Positions 5,892 through 33,614 of a stretch of DNA of 64,000 nucleotides are shown here, piece by piece. The translations under genes were made by a program, and so were the position numbers. The DNA is from Bartonella vinsonii subsp. arupensis OK-94-513 (GTDB lineage Bacteria; Pseudomonadota; Alphaproteobacteria; Rhizobiales; Rhizobiaceae). The stretch is taken from NCBI RefSeq assembly GCF_000278235.1, contig NZ_JH725037.1, positions 550,487 to 614,486 of the forward strand, read 5' to 3'. Below the pieces are notes generated by a model. It was not told the DNA's origin, searched no databases, and saw only the letters and a program-made list of their open reading frames with translations. Each line of letters opens with the position of its first letter. Position 1 is the stretch's first letter.

Positions 5892-7850
5892 TTACGTTGT
5901 GGGCTCTATATTTTGGCGGTTAGCAATGAGATCTTCAACGACTTGTGGTTCGGCTAGAGTTGAAATATCTCCCAAATTATCAAGATTATTTTCGGCGATT
6001 TTTCGCAAAATACGTCTCATAATTTTCCCCGACCGTGTTTTGGGCAATTGAGGGGCAAATTGAACTTTATCCAAAATAGCAATGGAGCCTATTTCCTTTC
6101 TGACATGTTGAATAAGGTCTTTTTGCAACTCTTCACTTGGGGTTTTGCCTTCCATTAAGGTGATAAAACTATAAATGCCTTGTCCTTTAATGGAATGAGG
6201 ATAGCCAACAATCGCAGCTTCTGAAACAGCAGGGTGAGAAACAAGTGCTGATTCAATTTCGGCTGTACCTAGCCTGTGTCCAGAGACATTGAGAATGTCA
6301 TCAACACGTCCTGTAATCCAATAGTAACCATCGCTATCGCGTTTACAGCCATCTCCTGTGAAATATTTTCCTTTATATGTCGAAAAATAGGTTTCAATAA
6401 AGCGTTCATGGTCATTGTAGAGGGTACGCATTTGACCTGGCCATGAGTCAATAATACAGAGGTTTCCTTCTGCTTCACCTTCCAAGATATCGCCTTGTGC
6501 ATCTACGATTTTAGGTTGAACACCGAAAAATGGACGTGTAGCAGAACCCGCTTTAAGTTGTGTTGCACCGGGTAAGGGGGTGATCATATGTCCTCCCGTT
6601 TCCGTCTGCCACCATGTATCGAGAATGGGACAGCGGTCATCTCCAACCGTATGGTAAAACCATTCCCATGCTTCTGGATTGATCGGTTCACCTACCGTGC
6701 CTAAAAGACGCAAAGATGTTCTTTTCGAGTGTTCAACAAAGGAATTTCCTGCCCCCATTAACGCACGAATAGCTGTTGGTGCTGTGTAGAGTGTGTTTAC
6801 TTTATGTTTATCGACAATTTCCCAAAATCTGCCTTTGTCTGGAAAGGTGGGTGTTCCTTCAAACATTAAAGTCGTAGCACCGTTGCACAAAGGACCATAA
6901 ATCAAATAAGAATGTCCAGTAATCCAGCCAATATCGGCAGTACTCCAGTAAATTTCTCCAGGATGATAATCAAAAACATATTGATGTGTCATCGATACAT
7001 AAACAAGATAGCCTGCTGTTGTATGCAAAACACCTTTTGGTTTGCCTGTTGAGCCAGAGGTGTACAGAATAAAAAGTGGGTCTTCAGCGTTCATGTGTTC
7101 GGCTGGACAGCTTGTTTTGGCATGGGAGACTTCTTCATGGTACCAGAAATCACGCCCCTCTACCCAATGAATGGGTTTACTGGTGCGCCGTATGACCATG
7201 ACTTGATCCACATGCACATGTTGGCGTGCTGCAATCTCAATAGCATGATCAACATTGTCTTTTAAGTTAATCTGTTTTCCTCCACGCAAGCCTTGATCAG
7301 CGGTAATGATGAAAGTTGATTCACAGTCAACAAGGCGTCCTGCTATTGCCTCAGCAGAAAAACCAGCAAAAATAACCGAATGAATAGCACCAATGCGGGC
7401 GCAAGCAAGCATGGCATAGGCTGCTTCAGGAATCATCGGTAAGTAAATGGTCACCTTGTCGCCTTTTTTAACACCATGATCCTTCAAAATATTCGCAAAG
7501 CGACAGACATGTTCATAGAGTGCGTTATAGGTTATTTTTTTATCATGATAAGGGTTATCCCCTTCCCAAATCAGCGCGATTTTCTCACCATGGCTTTTTA
7601 AATGGCGGTCAATGCAATTATAGGCAACATTTGTTATTCCATCCTCGTACCAGCGAATGGAGACATCATCATTAAAAGAAGTGTTTTTTACTTTTGTATA
7701 AGGTTTAAACCATTCAATACGTTGACCATGTTTTGCCCAGAAGCTTTCTGGATCATTGATACTCTCTCGATACCATTGTTGATAGGTTTCTTCATCAATC
7801 AGAGCATTTTTTTTAATATTCTCTTGTATTGGATAAATTTTTTCAGTCAT
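5892..7850 (-). CDS. acs: Acetyl-coenzyme A synthetase (AMP-forming)
   Basis: The 652-residue product matches the usual Acs length. It converts acetate, ATP and CoA to acetyl-CoA, AMP and pyrophosphate in two steps in the cytoplasm. The AMP-binding signature [15 protein letters not shown] sits near residue 262, the [10 protein letters not shown] motif near 415, the hinge and [16 protein letters not shown] motif near 520, and the C-terminal [11 protein letters not shown] motif, whose lysine is the acetylation-controlled catalytic residue in the family, near 610. The gene stands alone, between ftsE and a long non-coding stretch. It gives access to acetate as carbon source feeding the TCA cycle. 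Confidence 0.97.
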
Positions 7851-28540: not shown

Positions 28541-28720
28541 ATGGCTGTACCTAAACGAAAAACCTCTCCATCAAAGCGAGGTATGCGCCGTTCGGCTGAT
28601 GCCCTTAAGGCGCCGACTTATATCGAGGATAAAAATTCTGGTGAATTGCGTCGTCCCCATCATATCGATTTGAAGACTGGGATGTATCGTGGGCGCCCAG
28701 TTTTACCTGCTAAAGATTGA
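28541..28720 (+). CDS. rpmF: 50S ribosomal protein L32
   Basis: A 59-residue protein beginning [18 protein letters not shown], the invariant start of L32, and ending in a lysine-rich tail. The longer open frame that begins about 96 bases earlier is not credible because L32 always starts at this motif. It is a component of the large ribosomal subunit. This is the alphaproteobacterial form without a four-cysteine zinc ribbon. The gene stands alone and is divergent from ispA; the 28157-28540 region between them is AT-rich and should hold both promoters. Confidence 0.97.
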
Positions 28721-29240
28721 AATTCTTCTCTCTGGCAGTGGTAAGGTTTGTTTGATTCCACAAATAAGTTATATGCATAAATAAAGCATGCTGTTTGATA
28801 ATTCATCTTCGATGAGGATTTAAAGAGTGGCGTTGTTTGGTCACACAGTGATCTTTCTTATGGCTTTTTTGTTTTCTTAAGTGATAATTTGAATTGTTGT
28901 GCACGCGTTTTTCTTTAGACCGTATGCTGGGGAATACTGGGAGCTTTCTCTTCGAGTTTGTTAAGAGAGCCCGTTTTTATCATCTGATAAATGACTCGAA
29001 GGATTCTTGTGCACTATGGCATGTACTGGGAGAGAGTGGTGAAGCCTCTCTCTCGAGGGGATAATCTTAGCGGGTATTTTTTTCAATCACGCATATACAT
29101 TGAGAGTTCCAAAAAGATAGTCGCAATACCGATTTATCACGAGAAAATTATGATACCACTTATTTCACCAATATATTGTTGGATGGGAAAATAGGGGGGG
29201 CGGTATAAATTTTTTTTGTTACTGCACATGTATACAGCAC
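28721..29240. other. Intergenic region between convergent rpmF and carD
   Basis: About 520 bases. Short open frames occur but none has a recognisable product or ribosome site. A run of seven G residues lies near 29192-29200. Nothing else was identified before the carD terminator. Confidence 0.35.
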
Positions 29241-29245
29241 AAAAT

Positions 29246-29268
29246 AAAACCAGCATAGTGCTGGTTTT
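29246..29268 (-). terminator. Terminator of carD
   Basis: AAAACCAGCA, a 3-base loop and TGCTGGTTTT form a perfect 10-base stem. Read on the minus strand it ends in TTTTATTTTG, about 30 bases after the carD stop codon. The T/A symmetry means it could work in both directions. Confidence 0.85.
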
Positions 29269-29299
29269 ACTTTGTATTCAAAATATCTTGGCTTTTTTA

Positions 29300-29881
29300 T
29301 TATGCAGCGTAAACATTACCGTTTGCATTTGTTTCATCTCTCTCAGCTTTAAATTCACGTTTTGGCTTGTTCGAGAGATGCATCTCTATAAGATTGATGG
29401 CTTCTGTTTCAGAAAGATTATTAATAACAGCAATTTCACGCGCCATCCGTTCAAGTGCAGCGGTATAAAGTTGACGCTCAGAATAAGATTGTTCAGGCTG
29501 CACGTCCGAGCGAAAAAGATCACGCACCACTTCAGCGATACAAATAAGATCTCCCGAATTGATTTTAGCATCATATTCTTGTGCACGGCGTGACCACATG
29601 GTTCGTTTAACGCGTGCTTTTCCGTGTAAGATTTTTAAGGCACGTTCGACGGAATCACCAGCGGACAATTTACGCATTCCAACGGAAATGGCTTTAGCAA
29701 TTGGTACTTTGACATCCATTTTATCTTTTGCAAAATGAATGACAAAGAGTTTTAATTTATGTCCTGCAACTTCTTGATCTTCAATCGCGATAATTTGCCC
29801 TACTCCATGGCTAGGGTAGACGATGTATTCAGAGGTTGCAAATCCTTTAGCATTGGAGGACGTTCCGTGCTGGGATGCCAT
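29300..29881 (-). CDS. CarD/CdnL-family transcription regulator
   Basis: A 193-residue protein with an N-terminal CarD_TRCF RNA-polymerase-interaction domain (SEYIVYPSHGVGQIIAIEDQEV from about residue 17) followed by an all-helical C-terminal domain (AKINSGDLICIAEVVRDLF). CarD/CdnL proteins bind the RNA polymerase beta subunit and stabilise open complexes at rRNA and other promoters. In rhizobia and Brucella this gene sits next to fdxA, as here. Its promoter lies in the 305-base AT-rich gap up to fdxA. Confidence 0.93.
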   Translation of the reverse strand: MASQHGTSSNAKGFATSEYIVYPSHGVGQIIAIEDQEVAGHKLKLFVIHFAKDKMDVKVPIAKAISVGMRKLSAGDSVERALKILHGKARVKRTMWSRRAQEYDAKINSGDLICIAEVVRDLFRSDVQPEQSYSERQLYTAALERMAREIAVINNLSETEAINLIEMHLSNKPKREFKAERDETNANGNVYAA

Positions 29882-30186: not shown

Positions 30187-30531
30187 TTATTCGCCACTTC
30201 CTGGATTTTCTGAAAAATACTGTTCTAATTTGTTTGCAACGCCATCCATTTCTTTTGCTTGAGGAAGCGGATCTTTTCGGGTGGTTAAGTTAGGCCATTT
30301 GTTCGCATAATGAAGATTAAGCTCTAACCATTTTTCTAGGCCTGGTTCTGTATCAGGTTTAATAGCTTCCGCTGGGCATTCTGGCTCGCAGACACCACAA
30401 TCGATACATTCATCGGGATGAATGACAAGCATATTTTCACCTTCATAAAAACAATCAACGGGGCAAACTTCAACGCAATCCGTATATTTGCAATGAATGC
30501 AGTTATCCGTTACTACATAAGCCAAAATCAA
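30187..30531 (-). CDS. fdxA: Seven-iron ferredoxin FdxA
   Basis: A 114-residue ferredoxin with the Azotobacter-type cysteine pattern: C-x2-C-x4-C-x3-CP ([20 protein letters not shown]) for the 3Fe-4S side and [12 protein letters not shown] for the 4Fe-4S cluster, within the first 55 residues. The rest is the conserved helical tail [19 protein letters not shown]. It carries electrons in the cytoplasm; the partner here is not known. It begins 12 bases after the stop codon of the helicase remnant, so they share a transcript. In related genera an S4-domain RNA-binding gene sits between those two genes and is absent here. Confidence 0.95.
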
Positions 30532-30543
30532 ACTCCATCTTTT

Positions 30544-32106
30544 TTAGTGCTCTTTGGAAGAAAGTGTATGGGTGTCTTTATCCTTTGTGAGTTGATCGCG
30601 TAGCGCAGCTAATTTTGCAAAAGGGGAATCAGGATTAGGGCGTTTCTCTTTTTGAAAGGATTTATTATTGGTACGTTTGGTATGAGATCGGTGAGACTTA
30701 TAAGAAGGTTTTGCGTTTGATACGGTTGTTTGGGGGGTGTTTTCATTCGTGTTTACCCCTTTTTTGAAAGCCTTTTTCTGTTTGTTTTGTCCTTTGTACC
30801 CAGATTTATCACGATTTTTGTATGCATGGTGATGAAACTGAGGTTGATAACGCCACAGTAAAACAACTTTCTCTTCTGCTGTAGTGCGTTTTTGTTTGGC
30901 AAAATCACCAACAGGTTCAGCCGCCGGTAAGCAATTTGTGTTCCCTTGCTGTGTTTTAACACAAGGAGATAAAGTTTTTTCCTCTTCTGCTGTTTTGGAG
31001 GCTTTCATTGTTTGCCATTGATCGCCAACACATTCTGCCGCTGGAATATCTTGTTCACTCATATTTGTATGAGAAGAGCTTTGCTCTGCAAGAAGATGTT
31101 GTTCAAGAACAGTACTGCTTATGGGTTGAGATTGATAGCCAAGCCCTTTAAGAATTTCTTCCATATCGGTTCCATTGGCTCCAAGAATGGACATCATTGC
31201 GGATGTAACAAAAAAACTTTTGCCATCATAGGCGCCATCAGGCTTTGGCTCACTCCCTTGTTTCCAATGAAGCGTGGGGCGGATCAGGTTGGAAAGGCGT
31301 TCTAAAATATCAATGCGTACAGCACGTTGCCCTAAGATTCGATAACCGGCTAGTTGATAAAATTGGCGATTATAGGTAGGAACAACAGCCAAGGAGGTTC
31401 GTCCAGCAGCCAACGCGGAAAAAACTTCACCCATACCCGTTTGATCATGCCCCTCATTTTGAAGGCTCCACAACAGTGTAATTGCTTGGACCGGTGCTGG
31501 TTTAAGCATTGCTGCAACATAGATGTGAAAAGCGCCAAAACGAACACCAAGTTGCCGCAGAACTGCACGCGATTCTTGGTCAAGATTTTTAACAATGGTG
31601 GCAACTTCTCGACGCGGTAATATTCCTAAAGCGTTGACAAGTTTTAAGGAAAGATTGCTTGTTGAATCCGTCAAGCTATCACTATTGCGCAAATCAAATA
31701 GTGGCTTTAAAGCTGTTTCAAAATGAAAAGTAACAAAACGCTCTAACCGTTTTATCACATTATCTCGAGCTTCTCCCATTAATTGCGTATCTGCTAAAAC
31801 AATAAGTTTGGGTTTTAAAAAATCTTCCGTTGCAACAAGTTGTCCTACAGGTTGGCCAATCCAGCGCACAATTCCATCAGAACTGAGTGTAAAATCTCCA
31901 TTAGCACAAGCACAAAAACGCGCTGCACGTTTGGAAAAAGCAAGAACCAAATCTTCATTATCAGCTAAGTTTTGTCTCTCCGTAGTTTGATCTATCTTGT
32001 TTTTATTGGCATAAAAACGAAAACCTTCAAACTTACCATTTCCATGTTTTTCAATAAGAATATCATCTTGAAGAATATCATTCTGTGGAACAATCTTGCT
32101 ATCCAT
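30544..32106 (-). CDS. C-terminal remnant of a Suv3/MgpS-like helicase, motor domain missing
   Basis: A 520-residue protein with no Walker A, DEAD/DEAH box or other helicase motif. Its sequence instead matches, from memory, the C-terminal half of the large alphaproteobacterial Suv3-like helicases (often named MgpS-like): GNGKFEGFRF near residue 25, FTLSSDGIVRWIGQPVGQL, the long region RREVATIVKNLDQESRAVLRQLGVRFGAFH, and a basic tail ending SPFAKLAALRDQL. Full relatives are about 1000 residues. The ATG at 32106 follows GAGAAAG; a TTG two codons earlier is possible. The open frame is intact over 1.5 kb, so the truncated protein seems still selected. What the C-terminal part does alone is unknown. 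Confidence 0.8.
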   Translation of the reverse strand: MDSKIVPQNDILQDDILIEKHGNGKFEGFRFYANKNKIDQTTERQNLADNEDLVLAFSKRAARFCACANGDFTLSSDGIVRWIGQPVGQLVATEDFLKPKLIVLADTQLMGEARDNVIKRLERFVTFHFETALKPLFDLRNSDSLTDSTSNLSLKLVNALGILPRREVATIVKNLDQESRAVLRQLGVRFGAFHIYVAAMLKPAPVQAITLLWSLQNEGHDQTGMGEVFSALAAGRTSLAVVPTYNRQFYQLAGYRILGQRAVRIDILERLSNLIRPTLHWKQGSEPKPDGAYDGKSFFVTSAMMSILGANGTDMEEILKGLGYQSQPISSTVLEQHLLAEQSSSHTNMSEQDIPAAECVGDQWQTMKASKTAEEEKTLSPCVKTQQGNTNCLPAAEPVGDFAKQKRTTAEEKVVLLWRYQPQFHHHAYKNRDKSGYKGQNKQKKAFKKGVNTNENTPQTTVSNAKPSYKSHRSHTKRTNNKSFQKEKRPNPDSPFAKLAALRDQLTKDKDTHTLSSKEH

Positions 32107-32702
32107 GATCAATTTCTTTCTCAGTGCAACACACTGGTAAAAAGCTTATCCTCTACAATCCTATCATTGTGTTGCTCCTTTAACACGTTTGTTACGTTTG
32201 CTTCAATCATTCTTGTTGTTTTTTGATACTTTAATTTGAGCTATTTCCTTTTTTATTCATGTTTTATTCATTCGGTATGCTTTATACGCACTACACTTAT
32301 TGGTTGTATTGCGTTGCTGGAAGCGTAAAATGACTTCTTCATGAAAAAGGCAAGATGAGTCGAAATTTAAACAAAACAGTATTTGGTTTGGCGGATCCTT
32401 TTATTTTGTGCTGTTCTGTCATCAAAATGTAAGGAACGACATTTCTCTTATATTTGCGCATTTCTTACCGGTTTTTGCCAGTTTTTTGCCGGTGAGGAGG
32501 CATATAGCAAAGCGTCTTTTGTTAATGAATCTGTGTCTTTTAACAAGAAGTTTTACAATTGCCATAAAAAAACAATTGCGATTATAAAATTACACGCTAA
32601 AGTAGTGGTAATGCAAGCAAACAACTTTTGCGTTCTTTTTAAGAAAGAATAATGATGTCGTTGCCAAATCAATTTTGATATTTTTAATCGCAAGGGGTTA
32701 TT
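32107..32702. other. Divergent promoter region between the helicase remnant and rpoH
   Basis: About 595 AT-rich bases. I looked for leftovers of the missing helicase motor domain here and saw none. A plus-strand open frame at 32383-32652 has no recognisable product. The rpoH ribosome site AAGGGG lies at about 32691. Confidence 0.4.
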
Positions 32703-33614
32703 ATGGGTAATCTTTCAAATGCTGTTTATAAAAGCAGCAAAAATTATAGCGACGCAGACAAAAGCTTGGGACGTAATATGATGCGTTCCGCTATGCAAGC
32801 GCCTTATCTTGAACGAGAAAAAGAACATGATTTGGCTCTGCGATGGAAAGACAAACGTGATGATGAAGCTATGCATCAAATTGCAGCAGCGCATATGCGT
32901 TTGGTCATTGCGATTGCTAACCGTTTTAAACGTTTCAAAATGCCATTGGGGGATCTGGTGCAAGAAGGGTATGTGGGCCTTTTAGAAGCTGCTGCGCGTT
33001 TCGAGCCTGATCGGGAGGTGCGTTTTTCGACTTATGCAACATGGTGGATACGCGCTTCTATTCAAGATTATATTTTACGAAATTGGTCTATTGTTCGAGG
33101 AGGAACCAGTTCTTCACAAAAAGCACTTTTCTTTAATCTTCGGCGTTTGCGGGCGAAATTGGTGCAGGATGATAGTGCTCTTTCAAAACAAGATATCTTT
33201 CGCACAATCGCTGAAAAACTCGGTGTTTCCGTGCGTGATGTTGAAACTATGGATTTTCGTTTTTCTAGTGCTGATAATTCTTTAAGTGTTTCCGTTTCTG
33301 AGAACAGCGATAATCCTGTTGCTAAAATGGATGCTCTTGTGGATGATAGTCCTCTTCCTGATGCGTTAATTGAGCAAGTGATTGATGGTCAACGGCGCAC
33401 ACAATGGCTTTATGATGCATTGCAAATTCTCAATGAACGCGAACTTGAAATTATTCGTTTCCGTCGCCTGAATGAAGAGGGAGCTACCTTAGAAGTTTTG
33501 GGTGAAAAGTTAGGAATCTCAAAAGAGCGGGTGCGCCAAATTGAAGCACGGGCTTTGCAAAAGTTACGCTCCGCCTTGCTTACAGTCAATCCAGCAGATG
33601 CTTATGATGTGTAA
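32703..33614 (+). CDS. rpoH: RNA polymerase sigma-32 factor RpoH (RpoH2 type)
   Basis: A 303-residue group 3 sigma factor. Region 2 contains PLGDLVQEGYVGLLEAAARFEPDR and the promoter-melting FSTYATWWIRASIQDYILRNWS, region 3 starts with the RpoH box variant SSSQKALFFNLRRLR, and region 4 ends with LGISKERVRQIEARALQKLR. The GTSSSQKALFFNLRR form is characteristic of rhizobial RpoH2 rather than RpoH1, which has the QRKLFFNLRK form. Family knowledge: RpoH directs heat and oxidative stress promoters. It is a single-gene unit. No RNA thermometer can be proved, though the leader is AT-rich. Confidence 0.94.
   Translation: MGNLSNAVYKSSKNYSDADKSLGRNMMRSAMQAPYLEREKEHDLALRWKDKRDDEAMHQIAAAHMRLVIAIANRFKRFKMPLGDLVQEGYVGLLEAAARFEPDREVRFSTYATWWIRASIQDYILRNWSIVRGGTSSSQKALFFNLRRLRAKLVQDDSALSKQDIFRTIAEKLGVSVRDVETMDFRFSSADNSLSVSVSENSDNPVAKMDALVDDSPLPDALIEQVIDGQRRTQWLYDALQILNERELEIIRFRRLNEEGATLEVLGEKLGISKERVRQIEARALQKLRSALLTVNPADAYDV

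Follow-up and report, generated by a model that had tools for sequence, protein, structure and literature searches.

We begin with the genes at the locus. The window, by which we mean the whole stretch of 64,000 nucleotides that was analysed from the 1.79 Mb genome of Bartonella vinsonii subsp. arupensis OK-94-513, contains an open frame of 520 codons on the minus strand (30544..32106), running from an ATG at 32106 to its end at 30544. At the gene's own base composition a run of 520 open codons has a chance of about 4e-15, and the frame is indeed intact, as an earlier reading made from the letters alone (the sequence-only reading) had described it. An alternative start, TTG at 32112, would give a protein of 522 amino acids, and the GAGAAAG that stands 5' of the ATG is a plausible candidate for the ribosome site. 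Beyond a gap of 12 bases (30532..30543) the same strand carries the ferredoxin gene fdxA (30187..30531) and a gene for a carD-type transcription factor (29300..29881). The genes on either side lie on the plus strand. The one at 32703..33614 has a domain match to RNA polymerase sigma factors and is presumably rpoH2-like (rpoH2 below), and the one at 28541..28720, placed by gene order, we take to be rpmF, for ribosomal protein L32.

The 520-codon gene corresponds to the C-terminal module of a Suv3-type (MgpS) helicase, here standing on its own. Pfam and NCBIfam, which recognise the neighbours fdxA and carD, give no family for its protein up to E 1; neither the DEXQc_Suv3 motor domain nor the second motor lobe, Helicase_C, is found in it by Pfam, and a PDB sequence search returns no match. 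The named loci with matches to the protein in the contig collection are all from Bartonella (34/34), the nearest being in B. vinsonii at 89%. A relative of 980 amino acids (L065:2387-5329) has DEXQc_Suv3 and Helicase_C inside residues 11-271, with Helicase_C at 170-271, and matches the window protein through its residues 484-980 only, at 51% identity. Searched against the window's genome, this longer protein has a single match up to E 10, which is the window frame. A profile of the module finds the window protein at 8.6e-140, the window protein itself being a row of that profile. The homology is thus to the region that follows the motor in alphaproteobacterial MgpS helicases, including the SPFAxLxxL motif at the C-terminus, and the description of a Suv3-like helicase cut down to its C-terminal half stands.

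The motor-bearing Bartonella L065-L069 (5/5) have the collinear order mtgA-rpmF-motor-module-S4-fdxA-carD-rpoH2 on a single strand. Relative to this order, module-fdxA-carD is inverted beside rpoH2 in the window and in L031-L064 (35/35), with rpmF beyond carD as a whole match in 34 loci and, in L042, as a partial match in which the contig ends. The truncated loci L001-L029 (n=29) have the identical order of rpoH2, module, fdxA and carD. The sequence-only reading had pointed to the helicase-fdxA-carD neighbourhood of rhizobia; the genes do adjoin, but the block is also inverted relative to rpmF and rpoH2, a rearrangement that had escaped that reading. In the inverted block fdxA and carD follow the module, and the S4 gene is lost. 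By gene order, one breakpoint is placed in the spacer that separates the divergent module and rpoH2 genes (32216..32702) and the other in the spacer between rpmF and carD (28721..29299), which is also where the motor half would be expected; no motor remnant was found in this second spacer. Because one of the two breakpoints falls inside the helicase gene, the derived Bartonella have a module without a motor.

The ATG of the window gene aligns with an internal methionine of L065-L069. Just 5' of it (32107..32215), in the expected frame and place, is a faint match to profile positions of about 455-488, seen in the window and its three nearest relatives at 1.2-2.4 bits (E 0.32-0.7) and not significant alone. 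It is likely a decayed remnant of the ancestral coding sequence, a weak signal that we take as suggestive only. The simplest account of these loci would be a single inversion of module-S4-fdxA-carD in a common ancestor, after which S4 and the motor half disappeared. The inversion itself is shown by the gene order, while the sequence of the steps is what we infer. In the lineage ancestral to the derived (blood-borne) Bartonella, an in-place inversion with breakpoints inside mgpS and between carD and rpoH2 would have cut the helicase and left the motor half beside rpmF. The motor half and the S4 gene would then have been lost, and the C-terminal half, restarted at the internal methionine, would have become the first gene of the block module-fdxA-carD and been kept since by purifying selection.

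The surroundings of the inverted block vary in other ways. In derived Bartonella the spacer between rpmF and carD (28721-29299 in the window; also L045, L051, L044, L052) is anywhere from 339 bases to 3.8 kb long, and in several derived species it holds extra rpmF fragments, some in tandem. Among the 35 derived loci mtgA is matched between rpmF and ispA only in L059, L060 and L062, and it seems lost elsewhere. A second, partial fdxA match lies directly downstream of fdxA in L038, L049 and L064, and the M48 peptidase gene adjoining rpoH2 is matched as two pieces in L031, L052 and L063.

How far does the loss extend across the genus? Homologues of the window gene are found in 59 of 61 genomes (the window's genome and 60 relatives). 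Of 37 genomes of its own genus, 36 have a match: 29 are truncated, with frames of about 520-650 aa (the loci L001-L029), and seven are of the full-length kind, six with frames of 972-986 aa and one (G011) split across two contigs. The motor and the S4 gene were surveyed in a wider draw of 61 genus genomes. The DEXQc_Suv3 profile scores above its cut-off in 13 of them, and the window's genome has no match to it up to E 1. A motor query of 484 aa finds the same 13 genomes at E <= 2e-273; outside these the best match in any genome has an E value of 0.006. S4 orthologs are present in 12 of the 61, all within the 13 motor-bearing genomes; in G006, the motor-bearing genome with no S4 match, the motor sits at a contig end. 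L065 has an S4-type gene of 124 aa between the helicase and fdxA, at the site where the window has its 12-base junction. Used as a query against the window's genome, the L065 S4 protein finds no ortholog, its best match having an E value of 0.047. Six S4-domain matches in that genome turn out to be other proteins, with frames of 249-489 aa, and the weak match just given is the only one of the six that the query finds. The sequence-only reading had held the motor domain and the intervening S4 gene to be gone; with no separate motor gene, full-length ortholog or S4 ortholog found in the window's genome, both losses are confirmed.

Two candidates were discarded in the survey. A DEXQc_Suv3 match in G015 (E 8.8e-4, three stops) looked like a motor remnant and is antisense to a gene that we assume to encode a trimeric autotransporter. 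A frame of 487 aa in G047 was dropped as a motorless case since it runs off the contig end.

We turn our attention to the selection acting on the retained half. The module frame is open in 33 of the 34 loci L031-L064 and in all 29 truncated loci L001-L029. The broken one is L063, from Bartonella sp. WD12.1, where the gene is split over two frames (query residues 2-381 and 395-522, near 7100-7190), by a frameshift or an assembly error; it was left out of the alignments and of the omega estimates, which use 34 derived sequences. Over these sequences the omega of the module domain is 0.135, and a neutral omega of 1 is rejected for it with a 2 delta lnL of 2058. Close pairs, with dS of 0.09-0.2, give 0.10-0.20. 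The C-terminal half is under purifying selection and therefore encodes a working protein, which these likelihoods show statistically. In 11 motor-bearing Bartonella loci the omega is 0.028 for the module domain and 0.020 for the motor lobes. From motor-bearing to derived loci the neighbours go from 0.020 to 0.074 (carD), from 0.020 to 0.039 (fdxA) and from 0.040 to 0.032 (rpoH2). Constraint on the module is thus weaker after the truncation, yet clear, and its change exceeds that of the neighbours. The relaxed omega and the broken L063 are what one would cite in favor of a slowly decaying pseudogene, a reading that we consider extremely improbable given the open frames in the other loci and the rejection of omega 1.

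The constraint is unevenly spread along the protein. In the derived Bartonella the omega is 0.254 for the N-terminal segment (residues 1-65, 31912..32106), 0.116 for a conserved core (residues 66-325, 31132..31911) and 0.433 for a variable linker that is polar and basic (residues 326-490, 30637..31131). The C-terminal tail motif PDSPFAKLAALRDQL (residues 491-506, 30589..30636) has 0.056, estimated from 30 distinct sequences for the 16 codons of the motif alone, against 0.259 for a wider tail segment of 30 codons. Such a pattern bears on the idea that the frame is kept mainly as a leader of fdxA and carD, through transcription or translational coupling, and not for its protein. The gap of 12 bases to fdxA and the position of the module gene at the head of the inverted block would suit this role, but the low omega of core and tail beside that of the linker indicates selection on the protein, and the motorless module of the Micavibrio family has different neighbours. 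We therefore give the leader role very little weight.

The Micavibrio family (f128) is the second place where the module occurs without a motor, a finding new in this analysis. The module profile was run over 241 genomes of the class and found the module in 171. Among the matches listed, all frames have at least 810 aa except those of the window and of two f128 genomes, and a recheck by name of 25 genomes added a third f128 genome with a short frame. A motor test in 24 genomes put 21 above the cut-off, the three misses being these same three. In the 61 genomes of f128, 37 have the module only, 20 have motor and module, and four have neither. For G335, G351 and G370, whose module-only genes begin no more than about 120 bases from a contig end, this status means that no motor is found elsewhere in the assembly. 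G169 was rejected as a motorless case: module and motor lie in two frames (675 and 193 aa) about 1.1 kb apart on one contig, and we take it as a broken full-length gene. One Micavibrio genome of the full-length kind (G374, locus L228) is grouped here in the window's class, while NCBI taxonomy lists Micavibrio under Bdellovibrionota.

At least one of two flanking genes stands beside 32 of the 37 module-only genes and 17 of the 20 full-length genes of f128, and whole neighbourhoods agree between pairs of one genus. For G326 a search out to 11.5 kb brought up none of the flanking genes, and it does not count as a case of same-locus loss. Flanking proteins, up to four per locus, gave a tree for 41 of the 57 f128 loci (30 module-only, 11 full-length), the other 16 having fewer than two of the four flanking genes in reach. 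On this tree 8 switches between module-only and full-length are needed, at least 5 of them forced by well-supported branches, and the clustering of the labels is loose (42 of 500 shuffles are as low for module-only, 63 for full-length). The module's own tree, of the 57 sequences and 18 reference rows, requires 9-10 changes, at least 4 of them forced. The full-length G353 and the module-only G379 are sisters in both trees (with support of 100/100 from the flanking genes and 100 from the module); their modules are 68% identical and the two share their neighbouring genes on either side. In this family the module-only pairs with a measurable dS have a pairwise omega of 0.063 (G352/G378, dS 0.89) and 0.173 (G326/G363, dS 2.0), the mixed pair G353/G379 has 0.082 at a dS of 3.0, and three further pairs are saturated.

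These trees give no direction. Full-length genes being the general rule among the matches listed for the class, repeated loss of the motor would be the simpler reading. The alternative is that the motor was lost once, long ago, and that full-length genes were regained repeatedly by transfer. It would account for the 8 undirected switches as well, but it fits poorly with that rule and with the sister position of G353 and G379 in one neighbourhood, and we think it improbable.

The two motorless groups agree at the C-terminus. The tail motif is invariant in the 34 aligned derived Bartonella sequences, in line with the conserved final motif that the sequence-only reading had described. The pattern [SN]PF[ASD].L..L ends every protein of the derived Bartonella (34/34) and of f128, both module-only (37/37) and full-length (20/20); the narrower SPFA.L is found in 41 of the 57 f128 proteins, against 57/57 for the wider form. 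Full-length rows carry the pattern in 13 of 15 cases, L074 and L080 deviating. At 33 positions, residues are at least 80% identical in the derived Bartonella, the module-only f128 proteins, the full-length f128 proteins and 16 reference rows. The 60 residues that precede the tail carry a net positive charge, +6 to +13 in each of seven Bartonella proteins examined (of 34) and +3 to +16 in all 37 module-only f128 proteins.

The N-terminal segment behaves differently. The part that corresponds to Bartonella residues 1-65 is wholly absent from the module-only f128 proteins, and in the derived Bartonella this segment holds 6 of the 13 changed positions that are conserved in the motor-bearing relatives. 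Both motorless groups give the segment up, and it may serve to couple the module to the motor.

The idea that the tail motif is a docking site common to other proteins finds no support in the window's genome, where it has 13 matches against 12 for a reversed control and where, among long frames, the module gene alone ends in it. Structure prediction of the window protein, one of the checks that the sequence-only reading had in mind, was carried out and gave poor models with no recognised fold: AlphaFold with Bartonella-only alignments of 34 and 20 rows reached a mean pLDDT of 43 and 57, and Foldseek with the second model returned no match at E <= 0.001. The module profile finds no relative among solved structures (best E 0.23), and no module relatives were found in viral contigs.

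Helicase tails are commonly viewed as helpers of the motor. Bartonella keeps the module without one, the Micavibrio family does so repeatedly, and the module therefore seems to have a function of its own; we infer that it works independently of the motor in both families. That the accessory domain alone has a retained function was the central suggestion of the sequence-only reading, and the rejection of omega 1 and the motorless versions in a second family support it. Literature searches brought up no paper on the window protein in Bartonella, and no biochemical or genetic datum. The work of the module is most likely binding, as an adaptor for RNA or for a partner. In the mechanism we propose, RNA or a ribonucleoprotein would be held by the core (residues 66-325) together with the basic linker, and the invariant SPFAxLxxL at the C-terminus would form a helix that docks on a partner. 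In the full-length protein, core, linker and tail helix would aim the motor; without it they would still bind, protect or deliver RNA. To this explanation as a whole, from an inversion that cut the helicase to a C-terminal half kept as an RNA- or partner-binding adaptor, we give an even chance.

Two other functions have to be weighed against such an adaptor. The module could be an obligate subunit that acts in trans with a replacement enzyme, for instance a DEAD-box helicase or an exoribonuclease. A docking surface would fit the strict conservation of the tail motif and the conserved core, and mitochondrial Suv3 acts in complex with a ribonuclease, according to the portion of the source available to us (PMC5818665); the search of the window's genome for a Suv3-type motor, on the other hand, is negative. 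We hold the subunit role to be somewhat unlikely, though the stronger of the two. The module could also be an enzyme or an RNA-modifying domain of an unrecognised fold, for which binding is just a part of the work. The core, some 260 residues long, has R, D and K among its invariant positions and no recognised fold, which leaves room for this, but no catalytic motif is recognised, Pfam and NCBIfam are silent, and many of the invariant residues are G, L and R, to which binding is equally suited. An enzymatic role is accordingly one that we rate as improbable, well behind the adaptor.

Comparison with known systems places the adaptor reading in context. In the full-length relatives the module comes after a Suv3-type motor, the architecture of MgpS in rhizobia and Brucella (SMc03877 and BMEI0275), whereas the window protein is without any motor; by annotation and neighbourhood, mgpS is the putative ortholog of these relatives. 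In the accessible part of one report, mgpS is an RNA helicase gene raised in acid-stressed Sinorhizobium meliloti (PMC4941405). It is listed as BMEI0275 among the genes of attenuated Brucella mutants in excerpts of three further reports, in which its number is close to that of mgtA, BMEI0271 (PMC4070974, PMC12613988, PMC3743847). The acid induction in Sinorhizobium and the listing in Brucella, as far as those excerpts go, give the full-length gene a wider relevance. Mitochondrial Suv3 (6f4a, 3rc3) matches the motor of the full-length relative at residues 13-304 (E 5e-39 and 1e-28), but the match ends before the module. The module-only proteins of the Micavibrio family are alike in keeping core, basic linker and tail motif with no motor; they differ in a shorter N terminus and another gene neighbourhood, and their motor was probably lost in place, whereas that of Bartonella was lost via an inversion.

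A broader proposal, which we advance tentatively and at somewhat less than an even chance, is that what endures in the alphaproteobacterial Suv3/MgpS family is the function of the module and not that of the motor: the module would bind RNA or dock on partners as an autonomous protein, and the motor would be a dispensable addition. If so, lineages of at least two families would have dropped the motor independently, those of the Micavibrio family several times, and the kept core, basic linker and tail motif would define a new class, that of former helicase tails which stand alone. In Bartonella, and on repeated occasions in the Micavibrio family, nature has in effect deleted the motor, and the tail that was left is under selection. 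The whole Bartonella radiation thereby gains a conserved gene whose origin is clear, together with a short set of candidate residues, and related pairs with and without the motor, such as G353 and G379, provide a ready comparison of the roles of motor and tail.
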